NCBI RefSeq assembly: GCF_036885605.1
Contig: NZ_CP142523.1
Location: 5,704,001 to 5,768,000, forward strand
Direction: 5' to 3'
Source: Janthinobacterium sp. TB1-E2
Lineage (GTDB): Bacteria > Pseudomonadota > Gammaproteobacteria > Burkholderiales > Burkholderiaceae_D
DNA: 64,000 nt
Shown here in pieces: positions 50,999 to 59,410 of the stretch (within the stretch, counting starts at the first letter, position 1; each line of letters opens with the position of its first letter). Made by a program: the position numbers and the translations under genes. The notes beneath the pieces were generated by a model, which saw only the letters and a list, made by a program, of their open reading frames with translations, made no database searches and was not told the DNA's origin.

Positions 50999-51378
50999 CG
51001 CCAGCCAAGCTGCAAGGGCTGTACTGGGCCATGCGCCTCGGCATGGCTTTTATCTGGCTATGGACGGCGTTTGTGTCCTGGTATCTGTATCCGCATGCCG
51101 AATCGCTCGCATGGCTGCGCCGCAGCGGCATCACGCTGCATACGGAACACGTGTTTGCCGCCTCATGCCTGGCCGACCTGGCCATGGGCATCGCCTCGCT
51201 GTTCCATGCCAGGCCGTTGCTATGGTGGACGCAGTGCGCGCTGGTGGCCGGCTATACACTGGTGATCGCCGTCTTCCTGCCGGAATTCCTGATACACCCT
51301 TTCGGGCCGCTGACGAAAAATATCCCGCTGGCCGCCGGCCTCGTCTTCCTGGCCCTGTATGAAAAAAGCCGTGGCTAG
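50995..51378 (+). CDS. DoxX-like membrane protein
   Basis: A 127-residue protein with four predicted membrane helices (LGMAFIWLWTAFVSWYLYP, FAASCLADLAMGIASLF, WTQCALVAGYTLVIAVFLP, and a C-terminal helix). It matches the DoxX-like group linked to redox and quinone functions, without a defined activity. It is the last gene of the operon starting at 49413; its stop lies inside the terminator of the convergent norB operon. Confidence 0.85.
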   Translation: MTPAKLQGLYWAMRLGMAFIWLWTAFVSWYLYPHAESLAWLRRSGITLHTEHVFAASCLADLAMGIASLFHARPLLWWTQCALVAGYTLVIAVFLPEFLIHPFGPLTKNIPLAAGLVFLALYEKSRG

Positions 51379-51386
51379 CACGGCTT
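51362..51386 (-). terminator. Terminator of the nirK-ric-norB operon
   Basis: On the minus strand AAGCCGTG pairs with CACGGCTT and is followed by TTTTTT, 40 bases after the norB stop. It overlaps the end of the DoxX-like gene. Confidence 0.82.
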
Positions 51387-51426
51387 CGGGAGAGCGATCA
51401 ACAACACTCGGCGGCGCAGCAACCGA

Positions 51427-53700
51427 TCAGGCTGGCCGTACCGCCTGTGGCAGCGCGGGTGCCTTCGCCTTGTCCATCAAGCCCAGCACCACCTGCAGCG
51501 CCATGGCGATGGCGCCGCCGATGAAGACCACGTCGCCGAAGGTACGTATCCAGCGCAGGTTCTGCAACAGCGGCTGCTGCATGAACGCTTCGCTGCGCGC
51601 ATACCACAGGCCTTCCGTCACGCTGGCGTGGAACTGGATGATGCCTATCGGCAGCAAGCTGGTAAAGATCATCAGCACCAGGCCCACATTCAAGCCCCAG
51701 AACGCCGTCTTCATCAAGGCAGGACTGAAGCGGTAGCCGGGACGCAGATAGCGCAGCACCAGCAAGGTAAAGCCCAGCGCCAGGAAACCGTACACGCCGA
51801 ACAGCGCAGCATGCGCATGCACGGGGGTCGTGTTCAGGCCCTGGATGTAGTACAGGGCGACGGGCGGATTGATCATGAAGCCCAGCACGCCAGCGCCCAG
51901 CATGTTCCAGAAGGCGACGGCGACAAAGCACATCAGCGGCCAGCGCAGGTTTTCCATCCATGGCGCGCGTTCCTTCAGGCGCCAGTTTTCCCACGCTTCG
52001 TGTCCCAGCACGATCAGCGGCACCACTTCCAGCGCGCTGAAGCTCGCGCCGATGGCCATCACGGGCGTGGTGGTGCCGGCGAAGTACAGGTGGTGGAAGG
52101 TGCCGGGTATCCCGCCCAGCATGAACAGCGAGGCAGAGGCCAGGCTGGCCGCCGTGGCCATGCGCACCGACACCAGGCCCAGGGTCGAGAAGATGAAGGC
52201 CAGCGCCGTCGTGGCGAAGACTTCAAAGAAGCCTTCCACCCACAGATGCACCACCCACCAGCGCCAGTACTCCATCACGGACAGGTGCGTGCGCTCGCCG
52301 TAGAACAGGCCGGCGCCGTAGAACAGGCCGATGGCGCCCACGGATGCGGTCAAGAGCGCCAGCAAATTCTTGTCGCCGCCCGGCTTGCGCAGGGCCGGCA
52401 CGACACCGCGCAGCATCAGCACGAGCCACAGCAGGATGCCGATGTATTTACCGATCTGCCACAAGCGTCCCAGGTCCACATATTCATAACCCTGGTGACC
52501 GAGCCAGAAATTCCACTCGGGCGGCATCACTTGCGCAATGGCCAGGTAGTTGCCGATGAAGGAGCCGACCACCACGGCGACGAGGGCCCAGAACAGCACG
52601 TCGACACCGAGGCGCTGCCACTTGGGGTCCTTGCCGCCATTGATCAGGGGCGCGAGGAACAGGCCGGCCGCCAGGAAGCCCGTGGCGATCCAGAACAGCG
52701 CGGCCTGGATATGCCAGGTGCGCGTGAGCGCATACGGGAACCAGCGCGACACGTCGATGCCGTAGAACTGCTGCCCTTCCACCGTATAGTGCGCCGTGAA
52801 GCCGCCGATGAAGACCTGGAAGATGAACAGCGCCACGACCAGGAACAGGTACTTGCCGAGTCCCCGCTGCGAAGGCGTCAGCGCGAACGTGGTGAGCGGG
52901 TCGCGCGGACCGGCCGCCGGCAGCGCTTCGTCATGGTCGCGCAAGAAGGCCCAGCCCCAGACGAGGAAGCCCACGCCGGCCAGCAGCACCACCACGCTGG
53001 CAACCGACCAGACGAGGTTTTCGCCGCTGGGCTGGTTGCCGATCAGCGGTTCGTGCGGCCAGTTGTTCGTATAGGTCACTTTCTGGCCAGGACGCTCGGT
53101 GGCGGCGGCCCATGCCGTCCAGAAGAAGAATTGCGTCATCTGTGCGCGCCGCTCGGCGCTGGGCAGGGTATTTTCCTTCATGGCGAAATGCTCGCGGCTT
53201 TTTTGCAGCGCCGGCGCGTCGGAAAACAGCTGGTCGTAATAGTGGGCCGTGTTGGCGATCGCTTGCACGCGGCGCGGCGACAGGCGCAGCACTTGCGCAT
53301 CATCGGTGCGGTTCCCGCGGTATTCAAGCTTGAGCGCTTCGCGCAGCGCCGCCTGCGCGGGGCCGTCGAGGGCCGCGTACGCCTTGCCATGCTGCTCTTG
53401 CGCGGCCAGTTCCAGCCAGGCCGTCAGTTCGCGGTGCAGCCAGTCGGCCGTCCAGTCGGGCGCCTGGTAGGCGCCATGGCCCCAGATGGAGCCGAGCTGC
53501 ATGCCGCCGACCGATTGCCAGGCCGTCTGGCCGTCGAGGATGCCCTCGCGGTCGAACAGCTGCCGGCCATCCTGCGCCAGCACTTGCGCGGGGATGGGCG
53601 GCGCCTGCCGGTACACTTCGGCGCCGTAGTAGCCGAGCAGCGAAAACGTCACGATCAGCACACCGATCAGGGTGAACCAGAGTTTTTTGTAGGGACCCAT
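51427..53700 (-). CDS. norB: Quinol-dependent nitric oxide reductase (single-subunit)
   Basis: Reduces two NO to N2O with electrons from quinol. The 757-residue protein has an N-terminal helix (residues 8-28), a periplasmic domain of about 200 residues that stands in for NorC, and a 12-helix haem-copper-oxidase-like core. Metal ligands are visible: the His/Glu of VVHLWVEGFFEVFATTALAF, the His pair of GTFHHLYFAGTTTPV, and the His residues of TTPVHAHAALFGVYGF. No norC is present, in line with the qNor type. It is the last gene of the nirK-ric-norB operon, 14 bases after ric. Confidence 0.95.
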   Translation of the reverse strand: MGPYKKLWFTLIGVLIVTFSLLGYYGAEVYRQAPPIPAQVLAQDGRQLFDREGILDGQTAWQSVGGMQLGSIWGHGAYQAPDWTADWLHRELTAWLELAAQEQHGKAYAALDGPAQAALREALKLEYRGNRTDDAQVLRLSPRRVQAIANTAHYYDQLFSDAPALQKSREHFAMKENTLPSAERRAQMTQFFFWTAWAAATERPGQKVTYTNNWPHEPLIGNQPSGENLVWSVASVVVLLAGVGFLVWGWAFLRDHDEALPAAGPRDPLTTFALTPSQRGLGKYLFLVVALFIFQVFIGGFTAHYTVEGQQFYGIDVSRWFPYALTRTWHIQAALFWIATGFLAAGLFLAPLINGGKDPKWQRLGVDVLFWALVAVVVGSFIGNYLAIAQVMPPEWNFWLGHQGYEYVDLGRLWQIGKYIGILLWLVLMLRGVVPALRKPGGDKNLLALLTASVGAIGLFYGAGLFYGERTHLSVMEYWRWWVVHLWVEGFFEVFATTALAFIFSTLGLVSVRMATAASLASASLFMLGGIPGTFHHLYFAGTTTPVMAIGASFSALEVVPLIVLGHEAWENWRLKERAPWMENLRWPLMCFVAVAFWNMLGAGVLGFMINPPVALYYIQGLNTTPVHAHAALFGVYGFLALGFTLLVLRYLRPGYRFSPALMKTAFWGLNVGLVLMIFTSLLPIGIIQFHASVTEGLWYARSEAFMQQPLLQNLRWIRTFGDVVFIGGAIAMALQVVLGLMDKAKAPALPQAVRPA

Positions 53701-53714
53701 GGGTCTTTCCTTTG

Positions 53715-54392
53715 TCAGTGCACCACGGCCGGCGCAAAGCGCTCGAACAGGATATTGTTTTCAGTATGGATGTGCGCCATCAGGTCTTCGCGGAAGGTGC
53801 GCAAGCCCGTGTACAGCGCGCGCCAGGTGGTGCAGGCGCCGGCCGGCGCGGTGATGTCGTTCGTCATTTCCTCCATCGCGCGCAAGGCCACGCCATGGTC
53901 GTCATGCTCCATGCGCATCACGTTGATGGGCGCGCCGGCCCGGGGGCCCTGGCCACGCACTATCATGGGGAACAGCACGTCTTCTTCCTTGCGCATATGG
54001 CTTTCCAGTTCCTGCGCCATGGCCGACAGGTGTTCCGCCAGCCCGTGCGGACAGTCGGCGCGGTCGCCATGCACCTGCTCGACCTTGCGCGCCAGGCGTA
54101 TCAGCTCGGGCAGCTGCTCGCGGTGCACGGCGTGGTAGCGCGACAGGATGTGTTCCACCAGCTCGGTGGCCGAAGCTTCCTGCCAGTCACGCTCGCCGCT
54201 GGCGTCAGTCCGTCCTGCCAGCACTTGCAGTTCCTTGACGATGGGCGCCGTGTCCACGCCGGCCGCTTCGGCCGCCGCGCGCAGGGTCTTGTTGCCGCCG
54301 CAGCAGAAATCCAGGCGGTGGGCATCGAACAGGCGCGTGGCGCCAGGGATGCGGCGGGCCAGCTGGCCCAGGGATTGGTCGATCATTTCCAT
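53715..54392 (-). CDS. ytfE: Di-iron Fe-S cluster repair protein (RIC, YtfE/ScdA)
   Basis: Restores iron-sulfur clusters damaged by NO or oxidative stress. The 225-residue protein has the N-terminal DUF542 domain with the CCGG motif (FDAHRLDFCCGGNKTL). The haemerythrin-like domain follows with di-iron ligands in VEHILSRYHAVHREQLPEL, ELESHMRKEEDVLFPMI, MRMEHDDHGVALRAM and DLMAHIHTENNILFERF. Encoded between nirK and norB, so repair capacity rises together with NO production and removal. ATG at 54392 follows AAGGAAC. Confidence 0.95.
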   Translation of the reverse strand: MEMIDQSLGQLARRIPGATRLFDAHRLDFCCGGNKTLRAAAEAAGVDTAPIVKELQVLAGRTDASGERDWQEASATELVEHILSRYHAVHREQLPELIRLARKVEQVHGDRADCPHGLAEHLSAMAQELESHMRKEEDVLFPMIVRGQGPRAGAPINVMRMEHDDHGVALRAMEEMTNDITAPAGACTTWRALYTGLRTFREDLMAHIHTENNILFERFAPAVVH

Positions 54393-54418
54393 AATGGTTC
54401 CTTGAGGATGAATGGGGT

Positions 54419-55903
54419 TTATTGATGGGCGCCAGCGTGATAGACGCCGGGCACGGGTTCGCCAGTCACTTCCAGCACGCCCACGGCGCCCTTGCCGGCG
54501 CGCGACAGCGCATGGTCGACCAGCAGATAGCTGCCAGGATGCTGTACCTTGAGTTCGACGATGGTCGCGCCGCCCGGTGCCACCAGGGTCGTTTGCACGT
54601 CGTGTTTCGGGCTGCTGATCGAGCCTTCGCTGTACACCTTGTCGAAGATCTCGCCGATGATGTGGAACGATGAAATCTTGTTCGGGCCGCCGACGCCGAA
54701 ATAGATGCGCACCGTTTCGCCGACTTTCGCCTGCAGTTTATGCGTCTTGCTCAGGGCGCCCACTTCGCCGTTGAAGACGTAGTAGTCGGGCAGCTCATTG
54801 GCCATTTTTTCCAGGTTCGCTTCCTGGTGCACGGGTGCGCCGTGCGGACGGCCCGTGTACATCTCGCCCTGCATCACGTAATACTCGCGGTCGACTTTTG
54901 ACAGGCCGCCTTCCGGTTCGACCAGGATCATGCCGTACATGCCGGCCGCGATATGCTGCGGCACCAGCGGCGTGGCGCAGTGGTACACGAACAGGCCCGG
55001 ATTGAGCGCCTTGAAGGTGACGGTTTTTTCCTGGCCAGGCGCCACCTGCGTGTGCTGTCCGCCGCCATGGCCGCCCGTCACGGCGTGCAGGTCGATCGAG
55101 TGGATCATCTTGCTGTCCTTGGCGTTGAACAGGGTCAGCTCCACCGTGTCGCCCACCTTCGCGCGCAGCATGGGGCCGGGCACTTGCCGGTTGAAGGTCC
55201 AGTAGGTAAAACTGGTGCCGTCATCGAGCTTGCCCGGCAATTCCACCGTCTCCATCCGGTATTTCAGGGTTTGCGGCGCGCGCGCGCCGATGGCGGTCGG
55301 CACGGAGGCGGGATTGGCCGCCACGCTGACGGCCGAGGGATCGGGACCGCGCATCGGCGATGGCGCGGGCGTGTACAGGGCCAGCGCGGCGGCCTGGCTC
55401 GATTCGCTGGCAGCGCTGCCGGCGCCAGCGGCCTTCGGTGCCGCCGTCTCGGCCAGCGAAGTGCCGCTCACTTCCAGCTTGCCTTCCATGCCGATCTGGC
55501 GGTGGCCGGGGATCGAGCAGTAATAGGTGAACGTGCCCGCGCGCGTGACCTTGAAGCGCACGGTGGTGCTGCCGCTATTGGCACTGAACTTGGCGGATGT
55601 CACATTCAGTTCCGGGATCAGCAGATCGTGCTCGGCGCCTTCGCCGCTTTTCAGCACGAGTTCGACCGTGTCGCCCACCTTGGCCGCCAGCACGGGGTTG
55701 ACCTGGCCCTTGGCGTCGATGAACACCATCTTGCCATCGACGATATTGGTTTGCAGTTCATAGCGCTTGACCGCAGCGGCGGCCGGTTTGGCGGCGGTGG
55801 CGGCGGCGCTGGCCGGCAGGCTCACCTGGGCTTGCACGGACAGGGGCATGGCCAGTACGCAGACGGCGGCGGCAATGGCGCGGAGGGAGGGAGTCGTTTT
55901 CAT
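54419..55903 (-). CDS. nirK: Copper nitrite reductase with extra N-terminal cupredoxin
   Basis: Reduces nitrite to NO in the periplasm. The 494-residue precursor has a signal peptide (residues 1-25). A cupredoxin domain at about 46-147 carries type 1 copper ligands His92, Cys129, His134 and Met139. An Ala/Pro linker follows, then the two-domain NirK core. Core type 1 ligands are His268, Cys309, His317, Met322; type 2 ligands His273, His308 and His464; catalytic Asp271 and His414. Ordinary NirK is about 360 residues. Hyphomicrobium NirK has the same domain plan. ATG at 55903 follows AAGGAAAG. Confidence 0.96.
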   Translation of the reverse strand: MKTTPSLRAIAAAVCVLAMPLSVQAQVSLPASAAATAAKPAAAAVKRYELQTNIVDGKMVFIDAKGQVNPVLAAKVGDTVELVLKSGEGAEHDLLIPELNVTSAKFSANSGSTTVRFKVTRAGTFTYYCSIPGHRQIGMEGKLEVSGTSLAETAAPKAAGAGSAASESSQAAALALYTPAPSPMRGPDPSAVSVAANPASVPTAIGARAPQTLKYRMETVELPGKLDDGTSFTYWTFNRQVPGPMLRAKVGDTVELTLFNAKDSKMIHSIDLHAVTGGHGGGQHTQVAPGQEKTVTFKALNPGLFVYHCATPLVPQHIAAGMYGMILVEPEGGLSKVDREYYVMQGEMYTGRPHGAPVHQEANLEKMANELPDYYVFNGEVGALSKTHKLQAKVGETVRIYFGVGGPNKISSFHIIGEIFDKVYSEGSISSPKHDVQTTLVAPGGATIVELKVQHPGSYLLVDHALSRAGKGAVGVLEVTGEPVPGVYHAGAHQ

Positions 55904-55948
55904 CAAGCTTTCCTTGGTCTTGTATGCCGGTTCGGCACTCTTACCTAG

Positions 55949-55963
55949 GCAATCCGTGTGCCA
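55949..55963 (-). promoter_or_regulatory. Sigma-54 promoter of nirK-ric-norB
   Basis: On the minus strand TGGCAC-N5-TTGC is an exact match to the -24/-12 consensus, 46-60 bases before the nirK start, predicting transcription from near 55938. It fits the sigma-54 activator NorR encoded divergently. Confidence 0.88.
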
Positions 55964-55971
55964 GGAAAAAC

Positions 55972-55985
55972 TTGTTTTAAATCAA
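55972..55985. promoter_or_regulatory. FNR/DNR-type box upstream of nirK
   Basis: TTGTTTTAAATCAA matches the consensus TTGAT-N4-ATCAA at 9 of 10 half-site positions. Its centre lies about 41 bases upstream of the predicted nirK start, the class II activator position. It may add low-oxygen or NO control to the operon. Confidence 0.5.
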
Positions 55986-56003
55986 CGATTTGAAAAATGC
56001 AGG

Positions 56004-56058
56004 GTCGATATGACCCTGTTCAAGCATGGTCCGTTGTACCCTGCATGGTACTTATGAC
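56004..56058. promoter_or_regulatory. Three NorR-type binding sites (GT-N7-AC)
   Basis: GT-N7-AC cores occur at 56004-56014 (inside the palindrome GGGTCGATATGACCC), 56029-56039 and 56048-56058. NorR of E. coli and Ralstonia needs three such sites for activation. Centres are 71, 96 and 115 bases upstream of the predicted sigma-54 start. The third overlaps the norR start codon, suggesting autoregulation. Confidence 0.7.
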
Positions 56059-57610
56059 CACCACTGCCATCCACCTGCTGTTACTCACAGACCTGGTCGC
56101 CGACCTGCCCGTGGCCGTGCGCCTGCAGCGCCTCGTCGGCAGCCTGCGCGCCCACTTCGGCTGCGAGGCCGTGGCCTTGCTGAAAATCGATGGCGAGCAT
56201 TTGCGCCCCGTGGCGATGGCCGGCCTGGCCAACGACGCGCTGGGACGCCGCTTCGCCGTCGCCGACCATCCGCGCCTGGCCGCCATCCTGCAGCGGCGCG
56301 GCGTGCTGTGCTTCCATCACGACAGCTCCCTGCCCGATCCCTACGATGGCCTGATCGCCGAGCGGGCCGGCGAGCCGCTGCCCGTCCATGACTGCATGGG
56401 CATGGCGTTGGACCTGGAAGGCGAACGCTGGGGCGTGATCACGCTCGACGCACTGCAGGTGGGCACCTTCGATACACAGGCGCAGCGCGACCTGGGCGAG
56501 CTGGCCTGCGCCATCGAAGCGGCCGTACGCGTAACGCGCCTGGAGACGGAAATCCGCGCCCTGCGCCTGTCGGGCGGCGCCATGCTGGCCGATGCGCAGG
56601 CGCCGCGCGAGGAACACGATTTCGTGGGACAAAGCAGCGCCATCACGCACTTGCTGCACGAATTGCAGGTGGTCGCCGATTCCGAACTGCCCGTGCTGCT
56701 GCTGGGAGAGACGGGCGTGGGCAAGGAGCTGTGCGCGCACCGCCTGCACCGGCTGTCGCGCCGCGCGGGCAAGCCTTTGATCCACGTCAATTGCGCGGCC
56801 TTGCCGGAATCCTTAGCAGAAAGCGAATTGTTCGGCCATGTGCGCGGTGCGTTTTCCGGCGCCGTCAGCGACCGGCCCGGGCGCTTCGAGGCGGCCGAAG
56901 GGGGTACCCTGTTTCTCGATGAAGTGGGGGAATTGCCATTGTCGATACAGGCCAAGCTGCTGCGCACCTTGCAAAATGGCGAAATCCAGCGCCTGGGCGC
57001 GGACCGGCCGCGCCGGGTCAACGTGCGCGTGATCGCCGCCACCAACCGCAGCTTGCGCGAACACGTGCGCGACGGCTCGTTCCGCGCCGACCTGTATCAC
57101 CGTTTATCCGTGTATCCCGTGCCGATTCCGCCGCTGCGCGAGCGGGGCAATGACGTGCTGCTGCTGGCAGGCGGCTTCCTGGAACTGAACCGCGCGCGTC
57201 TGGGCCTGCGCAGCCTGCGCCTGTCCGCCGCGGCGGAAAACGCCCTGTGCCATTACCGCTGGCCGGGCAATGTGCGCGAACTGGAACATGTGATCAGCCG
57301 GGCCGCGCTGAAAGCCGTGATACGCGGCGCGGACCGCAAGGACATCGTGACCCTGGAAACGGATATGCTCGACCTCGATGCGCTGGAAACGCCGGCCGGC
57401 ACGGACGCGCTACCGCTGGCGCCAGCCACGTGCGGCACGCCGGCGGCGCCGCTGCTATCGATGCATCAGATCGTCGAAGCGAGCCAGCGCCAGGCCATCC
57501 GGCAAGCGCTGGTCCTGCATCAGGATAACTGGGCCGCTGCGGCGCGGCAGCTGGGACTCGACGCCAGCAACTTGCACAAACTGGCGCGCCGGGTGGGGCT
57601 GAAAGCCTGA
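56054..57610 (+). CDS. norR: NO-responsive sigma-54 activator NorR
   Basis: A 518-residue enhancer-binding protein. The N-terminal GAF domain (residues 1-170) binds NO through a mononuclear iron in the family. The AAA+ domain has Walker A LGETGVGKELCAHRLH, the sigma-54 contact loop GAFSGA, Walker B GGTLFLDEVGELP, and IPPLRERGNDVLLLA. A Fis-type helix-turn-helix ends the protein (NWAAAARQLGLDASNLHKLARRVGL). ATG at 56054 is chosen because the GAF domain starts there. It is divergent from nirK and presumably activates it when NO is present. Confidence 0.95.
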   Translation: MTTTAIHLLLLTDLVADLPVAVRLQRLVGSLRAHFGCEAVALLKIDGEHLRPVAMAGLANDALGRRFAVADHPRLAAILQRRGVLCFHHDSSLPDPYDGLIAERAGEPLPVHDCMGMALDLEGERWGVITLDALQVGTFDTQAQRDLGELACAIEAAVRVTRLETEIRALRLSGGAMLADAQAPREEHDFVGQSSAITHLLHELQVVADSELPVLLLGETGVGKELCAHRLHRLSRRAGKPLIHVNCAALPESLAESELFGHVRGAFSGAVSDRPGRFEAAEGGTLFLDEVGELPLSIQAKLLRTLQNGEIQRLGADRPRRVNVRVIAATNRSLREHVRDGSFRADLYHRLSVYPVPIPPLRERGNDVLLLAGGFLELNRARLGLRSLRLSAAAENALCHYRWPGNVRELEHVISRAALKAVIRGADRKDIVTLETDMLDLDALETPAGTDALPLAPATCGTPAAPLLSMHQIVEASQRQAIRQALVLHQDNWAAAARQLGLDASNLHKLARRVGLKA

Positions 57611-57624
57611 GCCGGCGTTACCGC

Positions 57625-57966
57625 TCAGCGATGAGTGACCAGGCTGCTCGGCAAGCTGTGCAGGTAGGCGGCCAGGTCCTTGATGTCCTGGTTGCTCAGC
57701 GGTTTTACCTGGCCCGTCATGATGGCGTTGTTGCGGCCGTTGGCCTTGTCGCCCCGTTTATACGCGGTCAGCGCATGTTCCAGGTAATCCTTGTGCTGGC
57801 CCGCCAGTTTCGGGTACGACGGGTCGATGGGCGAACTGTAATCCTTGCCGTGGCAGGTGGCGCAGCTGTATTTTTCGGCCAGGGCCTTGCCCGTGTTGAT
57901 ATTGCCGGCGGCGCTGGCGGAAAACGAGATGGTGGCGCAAACGAGGGCGGCGAGTAGTTTTTTCAT
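57625..57966 (-). CDS. Class I c-type cytochrome (c553-like)
   Basis: A 113-residue periplasmic cytochrome. A signal peptide ends at SASAAG; the haem site is CATCH (Cys35, Cys38, His39); the likely axial methionine is Met83 in IMTGQVKPLS. A fold-typical C-terminal helix DIKDLAAYLHSL follows. It is the second gene of a pair of small cytochromes with an 11-base gap, and convergent with norR. A role as electron donor to NirK or an oxidase is plausible but unproven. Confidence 0.92.
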   Translation of the reverse strand: MKKLLAALVCATISFSASAAGNINTGKALAEKYSCATCHGKDYSSPIDPSYPKLAGQHKDYLEHALTAYKRGDKANGRNNAIMTGQVKPLSNQDIKDLAAYLHSLPSSLVTHR

Positions 57967-57977
57967 CGGGCTGGTCC

Positions 57978-58307
57978 TCAGTTCGTCTTGGCTTGTTGCG
58001 CATAATACGCGGCGACATCGGCGATATCCTGGTCCGACAGGCTGCTGGCGATGCCCTTCATGCTGGGGTGCTTGCGGTCGCCCTTCTTGTAGGCTTGCAG
58101 CGCATTCTCGATATATTTTGCCGGCTGGCCGCCGATCATCGGCACCTGGAATACTTCAGGGAAGGTTGCCTTGTAACCGGGAATGCCGTGGCAGCCGATA
58201 CACATTTCCACCTTGGCAGGGGCTGCCTTGGCGTTTCCTACAATGTCAGCCGCTGTGACGGCATTTGCTATGCCGGCAAGCACGAGAAGTGCAAATATTT
58301 TTTTCAT
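57978..58307 (-). CDS. Class I c-type cytochrome (c4/c553-like)
   Basis: A 109-residue periplasmic cytochrome with signal peptide (cut near AVTAAD), haem site CIGCH (Cys36, Cys39, His40) and a likely axial Met in HPSMKGIASSLSDQDIADVAAYYAQ. The sequence GIPGYKATFPEVFQVPMIGGQPAKYIENALQAYKKGDRKHP matches the other cytochrome's build, suggesting duplication. ATG at 58307 is chosen by the signal peptide. A promoter with TTGGCA and TAAAAT lies about 55 bases upstream. Confidence 0.92.
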   Translation of the reverse strand: MKKIFALLVLAGIANAVTAADIVGNAKAAPAKVEMCIGCHGIPGYKATFPEVFQVPMIGGQPAKYIENALQAYKKGDRKHPSMKGIASSLSDQDIADVAAYYAQQAKTN

Positions 58308-58360
58308 AGTGGCAATGTGAACAAAGGTAATCGGAGAAACGCCAGAGCTGGTTTTTTTTG

Positions 58361-58390
58361 ATTTTATGTGTTGACAATTAAGGTTGCCAA
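58361..58390 (-). promoter_or_regulatory. Sigma-70 promoter of the cytochrome pair
   Basis: On the minus strand TTGGCA (58385-58390) and TAAAAT (58361-58366) are 18 bases apart, 54 bases before the first cytochrome gene. Confidence 0.55.
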
Positions 58391-58540
58391 TTAATCTGCT
58401 GCTTGCCGATTCTAGCCAAGATATTCTTGCAAGTCCACCTATAAAACCCGCATTGTAGGCACGCAGGCACAGGCCGTCCGCGTGACGCTGGGCCACAGTT
58501 CTGTTTATACTCACCATTTCCCCACTTTGGCAGACCGCTC

Positions 58541-59410
<870 letters not shown>

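Follow-up and report, generated by a model that had tools for sequence, protein, structure and literature searches.

In Janthinobacterium sp. TB1-E2 (genome size 6.31 Mb), the copper nitrite reductase gene nirK stands back to back with norR, the gene for a nitric oxide (NO)-sensing activator of sigma-54 RNA polymerase. We analysed the 150-bp gap between the two genes within a window of 64,000 nucleotides (contig NZ_CP142523.1, positions 5,704,001 to 5,768,000 of the forward strand); all positions below are those of the window. Very probably, the gap contains a NorR enhancer promoter of the standard kind, which has come to drive nitrite reductase. It is established that NO can feed back on nitrite reductase by way of sensors of the CRP/FNR family. 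What is new is the proposed feedback through NorR and sigma-54, with the NO-removing genes placed behind the same promoter.

Promoter elements between norR and nirK

Read towards nirK, the gap contains three NorR sites, a consensus site for integration host factor (IHF), an overlapping FNR-like box and a sigma-54 element. The NorR sites are all located on the minus strand: site 1, distal from nirK, at 56047..56059 (GGTCATAAGTACC), site 2 at 56028..56040 (GGTACAACGGACC) and the proximal site 3 at 56003..56015 (GGTCATATCGACC), with spacings of 19 and 25 bp. An earlier, sequence-only reading of this DNA had described them as GT-N7-AC sites, and each of them fits the stricter GGT-N7-ACC. The same reading had seen an exact TGGCAC-N5-TTGC promoter on the nirK strand, which is indeed present at 55949..55963 (minus strand, 55963-55949, TGGCACACGGATTGC, 10/10). 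This element points at nirK from 60 bp before its start codon, and the inferred transcription start is near 55937. The three tandem NorR sites are situated upstream of this exact -24/-12 element, as in NorR-activated sigma-54 promoters. Between enhancer and promoter there is a predicted IHF site at 55980..55992 (plus strand, AATCAACGATTTG), which scores 9/9 against WATCAA-N4-TTR, the sequence we took as IHF consensus. A consensus scan, which may overlook weak elements, detected no sigma-70-like promoter in the gap; its four matches in 51000-58600 are all located at 58294 or beyond.

Site 3 is also part of a longer hairpin of 7 bp with a T-run behind it (56000-56018), which is terminator-like on the minus strand (z -2.9). 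We rejected the idea that this is mainly a terminator, because distant relatives keep the GGT/ACC bases only.

Each of the motifs is common in the genome when taken singly. GGT-N7-ACC, for example, occurs 1171 times, against 1713 in a reversed control. The spaced triple of NorR sites, searched with at most one mismatch allowed, has a single occurrence in this genome, without any mismatch, at the norR/nirK gap. No second NorR target was detected by this search; other spacings were not sought. Within the genus, the triple is present in 25 of 40 genomes, one copy in each, always with 0 mismatches and always overlapping the start of norR, and in the reversed control it is found in none of the 40. 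Because it is unique in each genome and absent from the control, the combination cannot be attributed to chance. The 25 genomes are all those with norR except G015 (locus L034), where one spacing is 24 rather than 25 bp. Further, 26 of the 40 genomes have norR, and it is exactly these that have nirK of this type (at least 85% identity).

Conservation points in the same direction. In a gap-free alignment of 25 of the 26 Janthinobacterium promoters (L034 left out), none of the 18 NorR core columns is variable, versus 33 of the 39 other enhancer columns (Fisher p 4e-10, which serves only as a guide, the sequences being related). We compared 34 norR-nirK promoters altogether, 26 from Janthinobacterium and eight from other contigs, some of the latter near-copies. 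All 18 core bases are perfect in all of them, and so is the GG-N10-GC of the sigma-54 element, found 52-54 bp from site 3 by a scan that favoured such matches by a bonus. To regard the elements as chance motifs or as remains of a decayed promoter, one could point to the frequency of the single motifs in the genome; given the uniqueness of the spaced triple and core bases strictly kept across divergent genera, we give this explanation practically no weight.

Site 1 opens with GGTCAT in 31 of the 34 promoters, and in the window it covers the presumed start codon of norR, which makes it probable that NorR restricts its own production as well. It is conceivable that the enhancer serves mainly this autoregulation and that nirK is transcribed from an unrecognised sigma-70 promoter, as many real promoters escape consensus scans. 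We find this unlikely, since the sigma-54 element faces nirK at close distance. The nirK-norA gaps also argue against it: they are without a NorR core in 12 of 12 loci, and their best sigma-54 match is at most 7/10 in 11 of these, the other one (L097) reaching 8/10 without the GG.

The promoter would serve a tight run of three genes on the minus strand, divergent from norR. nirK (54419..55903) is assigned by TIGR02376 (340.9 bits, cut-off 296.3) and encodes a copper nitrite reductase that carries an additional cupredoxin domain at its N terminus. It is followed after 26 bp by norA (ytfE/RIC; 53715..54392), the gene of a di-iron repair protein that is above the cut-offs of NF008221 and TIGR03652. 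After another 14 bp comes norB (51427..53700), encoding a single-chain NO reductase (PF22085 and PF00115 over cut-off; NCBIfam gave no match), presumably of the quinol type. No terminator-like site was found on the coding strand within the run. The presence of repair and NO reductase genes behind nirK, as noticed in the sequence-only reading, is thereby borne out. Position, spacing and conservation of the elements strongly support the predicted control of this run by NorR and sigma-54.

The divergent norR (56054..57610, plus strand, start codon presumed) encodes a protein with GAF, AAA+ and C-terminal regions (Pfam GAF and Sigma54_activat), which matches the NCBIfam equivalog NF003451 with 703 bits (cut-off 476). 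It is 51% identical to NorR of Escherichia coli. D96, D99, C113 and D131 are reported to be the iron ligands of the E. coli protein, and R75 is named in the literature alongside them; the residues aligned to all five are identical here. The loop contacting sigma-54 is GAFTGA in E. coli and GAFSGA (T to S) in the window, the latter form being carried by 39 of 44 compared NorR rows. The lack of R81, a residue linked to repression in E. coli, was considered as a sign of altered control. We dropped this idea because R is present in only 2 of the 44 rows (L112 and L122); the residue in the window is Q. The genome also encodes RpoN, both IHF subunits (alpha and beta), FNR and NarG.

Two side observations concern these genes. 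NirK, with PF00127 at 108-145, has its best PDB matches in 6tfd and 2dv6, which are of a similar long form (chains of 456 and 447 residues). Convergent with norR, two small c-type cytochrome genes (PF00034) occupy 57625-58517; their products are possible electron donors.

Predicted IHF and FNR sites on the same bases

According to the sequence-only reading, the nirK operon is wired to NorR, sigma-54 and FNR at once, the last through a 9/10 FNR-type half-site pair centred at about -41. The NorR and sigma-54 parts of this wiring are strongly supported. The FNR-type match itself is real (TTGATTTAAAACAA, 55972..55985, minus strand, 9/10) and its dyad centre does fall near -41. This distance is counted from the inferred sigma-54 start, and so a class II sigma-70 FNR promoter does not follow from it. 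What makes the FNR part doubtful is the perfect IHF site on the same bases: TTGATT of the FNR pair doubles as the IHF core, the other IHF half CAA being four bases off.

Of the 34 norR-nirK promoters, 30 have a 9/9 IHF match whose offset from the start of site 3 is +23 or +24, the exceptions being L097 (6/9), L099 (8/9), L100 (7/9) and L101 (8/9). An FNR match of at least 9/10 is present in 23 of the 34, namely in 23 of 26 from Janthinobacterium and in 0 of 8 others, among which the best is 8/10 (L104). Even within the genus, three of four divergent promoters (L031, L032 and L034) drop to 7 or 8/10 for FNR while IHF holds 9/9. The TTGAT-N4-ATCAA expected of a class II FNR promoter is thus not kept with the gene.

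We also examined 30 regions from other genera of the order in which norR faces other genes (all 23 non-own matches of one search and seven of another, 8 of whose 27 out-of-genus matches were covered overall). IHF matches of at least 8/9 occur at the same place in 11 of these regions (9/9 in eight), and FNR matches of at least 9/10 in two; TTGATT also occurs at this place in promoters of this kind that lack the right FNR half. Four regions contain a 9/9 IHF match in opposite orientation elsewhere in the interval. Perfect NorR cores are found in only 15 of the 30, which leaves the anchor uncertain in the others. In sets of shuffled intervals, the mean number of promoters reaching the thresholds used was between 0.01 and 0.14. 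As the IHF match is kept more widely than the FNR match, IHF explains most of the conservation of the element, and FNR as primary reading of TTGATTTAAAACAA is set back by this comparison. A review figure legend states that IHF bends the norVW promoter of E. coli.

It remains a tentative idea that FNR (or DNR) acts at TTGATTTAAAACAA in addition to NorR and sigma-54, adding low-oxygen control to NO control; the element may then serve both IHF and FNR. The match in most Janthinobacterium promoters favours it. The genome encodes FNR, above its family cut-off and with cysteines near the N terminus, as well as a DNR-like protein of the CRP family with DNR (3dkw) as best PDB match. For hmp of Pseudomonas stutzeri, too, a DNR site is described that lies between the NorR sites and the sigma-54 promoter (Rodionov et al., PMC1274295). 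What counts against this idea is the behaviour of the element in the comparisons above, together with the negative sigma-70 scan of the gap. The DNR-like protein (L048 1045-1737) reads APATLSR where 3dkw has QPETFSR, with alanine replacing glutamate, and its DNA site may differ from that of DNR.

Two Polaromonas genomes, JS666 and CF318, are of relevance here. Their nirK-norB loci retain TTGATCTAGGACAA (8/10 FNR), which is 82 bp away from the start codon, just as in the window. The sigma-54 element is weaker (6/10), IHF scores 8/9 and 6/9, and the fetched flanks contain no norR, norA or NorR sites. Because an FNR-like box is kept there without NorR sites, a role of FNR in Janthinobacterium is possible. 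The two loci (L098 5019-5175 and L131 5844-6000) resemble a natural rewiring in reverse, with the FNR-like box kept and the sigma-54 element decayed. Another candidate comparison gave no contrast for the FNR question. The second nirK type of the genus (46-49% identical, L035-L038; four of five such genomes were read) is without norR; neither an FNR box nor a sigma-54 element reaches 9/10 within 400 bp of it, and a stray single GGT-N7-ACC occurs in two of the four.

Several observations weigh against a NorR/sigma-54 promoter of nirK. For the exact TGGCAC-N5-TTGC, the genome has 23 matches and the reversed control 19, so the lone motif is hardly commoner than in the control. The sigma-54 element is less perfect in distant norR-nirK relatives, where the -12 or -24 part deviates, with TCGC in L095, L096, L097 and L101 and ATGC in L100; it is also imperfect in L104 (AGGC and TCGC) and L033 (TGGTAT). 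For E. coli norVW, our scan gave no 9/9 IHF match; the best one, 8/9, is located among the NorR sites, and the expected interval reaches 7/9. Finally, an extra nirK promoter may exist.

Relatives and possible origin of the layout

Among at least 565 confirmed stretches with NirK relatives, 80 named loci were kept. The order norR-nirK-norA-norB is present in 20 of them, 12 from Janthinobacterium and eight others, which include Caenimonas koreensis, Xenophilus azovorans and metagenome-assembled genomes of Comamonas and Hydrogenophaga. The norR-nirK layout thus recurs in Comamonadaceae; loci L094, L095 and L096 are close to one another. No NirK match (E 1e-8 or better) was found in the 30 norR regions of other genera, some of which end at contig ends. 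Of these regions 15 contain norA and nine norB; seven have both and 13 neither. The same enhancer is often present where norR faces norA, norB or other genes. In L192, the facing gene is a flavohaemoglobin by its domains. In L174 (1389-1868), from a genome of the order, norR and three NorR sites face a cytochrome P460 gene (PF16694, 101 bits), which may be another target of NorR in addition to those usually listed.

Trees were built by a quick method with SH-like approximate likelihood ratio test (SH-aLRT) values and no bootstrap. The NorR tree comprised 14 norR-nirK rows (the window, five of the 12 named Janthinobacterium loci and the eight others) and 30 other rows, and the NorB tree 25 rows. 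A single branch of the NorR tree separates all 14 norR-nirK rows from the others (SH-aLRT 84), and in the NorB tree the same holds for the 16 nirK-norB rows, including Polaromonas (SH-aLRT 93). NorB of Janthinobacterium is 92% identical to that of Caenimonas. With moderate confidence we propose that nirK was captured once between an existing NorR promoter and norA, and that the arrangement later spread, including into Janthinobacterium. In the simplest history, the two Polaromonas loci would have lost norR, norA and the NorR sites.

Proposed feedback and known systems

From gene order, motifs, their spacing and conservation, and the encoded RpoN, IHF and NarG, we infer binding, NO response, co-transcription and feedback as follows. 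NorR would occupy its three sites, and IHF would bend the stretch that separates these from the sigma-54 promoter. Upon binding of NO to the iron in the GAF domain, the ATPase of NorR would be freed and open sigma-54 RNA polymerase, giving a single nirK-norA-norB transcript. Because NirK makes NO, the loop would reinforce itself. NorA and NorB, translated from this same transcript, would bind and remove NO and thereby cap the loop. The priming NO might come from neighbours, from basal NirK or from NarG acting on nitrite; formation of NO from nitrite by NarG is reported in Salmonella, according to a review. Positive feedback of NO through NorR is plausible, and the same principle is known via NNR and NnrR for nirS and nirK.

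A more speculative extension is an NO latch. If nirK were expressed only via NorR and sigma-54, the cell would commit to denitrification once NO from outside, or NO made as side-product by NarG, passes a threshold, with NorA and NorB setting the ceiling. In Janthinobacterium, the FNR half within the IHF site could let oxygen state compete with DNA bending and so gate the latch. We regard this scheme as possible and rather doubtful.

The individual parts have close counterparts. The E. coli norVW promoter has three NorR sites (spaced 21 and 24), sigma-54 and an IHF-bent loop, the layout also predicted here, and it is served by a NorR with the same iron-ligand residues; its target, however, removes NO, whereas the first gene here makes it. 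The hmp promoter of P. stutzeri combines predicted NorR sites, spaced by 19 and 25 bp as in the window, with a DNR-type box and then sigma-54 (PMC1274295), and its target is an NO dioxygenase, unlike nirK. Compared with the described norR-norAB system of Ralstonia eutropha (Cupriavidus), the locus here differs in having nirK as first gene, between promoter and norA. In Ralstonia solanacearum norR-norA, norA is reported to be driven by NorR, as would be the case here. The NnrR and NNR systems, exemplified by NO feedback on nirK of Rhodobacter sphaeroides (NnrR) and by the modelled positive feedback on nirS of Paracoccus denitrificans (NNR), also have NO turn on the reductase that makes it. Their regulators are activators of the CRP/FNR family, as opposed to NorR with sigma-54.

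In the literature, the genes under NorR are those that remove NO; Rodionov et al. (PMC1274295), for instance, give its targets as norVW, norA and norB, hmp, nnrS and dnrN, and hcp-hcr for NorR2. For Ralstonia, the same paper states in general terms that nir, nor and nos are regulated by NorR and DNR; nirK appears at 10 places of its main text, and NorR is never named there as nirK regulator. No NorR control of nirK is reported in passages of PMC4601167, PMC2941729, PMC8139620, PMC9045102, PMC8510549, PMC5690324, PMC5710167 and PMC4222654. We found no report of it in the literature searched, a weak negative with most subscription journals outside the search.

In the arrangement described here, the NO-producing step heads the predicted target operon of NorR, and none of the 25 Janthinobacterium genomes with the spaced triple has it anywhere else. 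A genome report on Janthinobacterium svalbardensis found no nitrous oxide reductase; if the enzyme were missing here too, release of N2O would follow. Our model predicts that expression of nitrite reductase would respond to NO made by neighbours. With source and sink of NO under one promoter, the locus would be a small, naturally occurring test case for the question whether feedback by NO turns the switch to denitrification into an all-or-none event.

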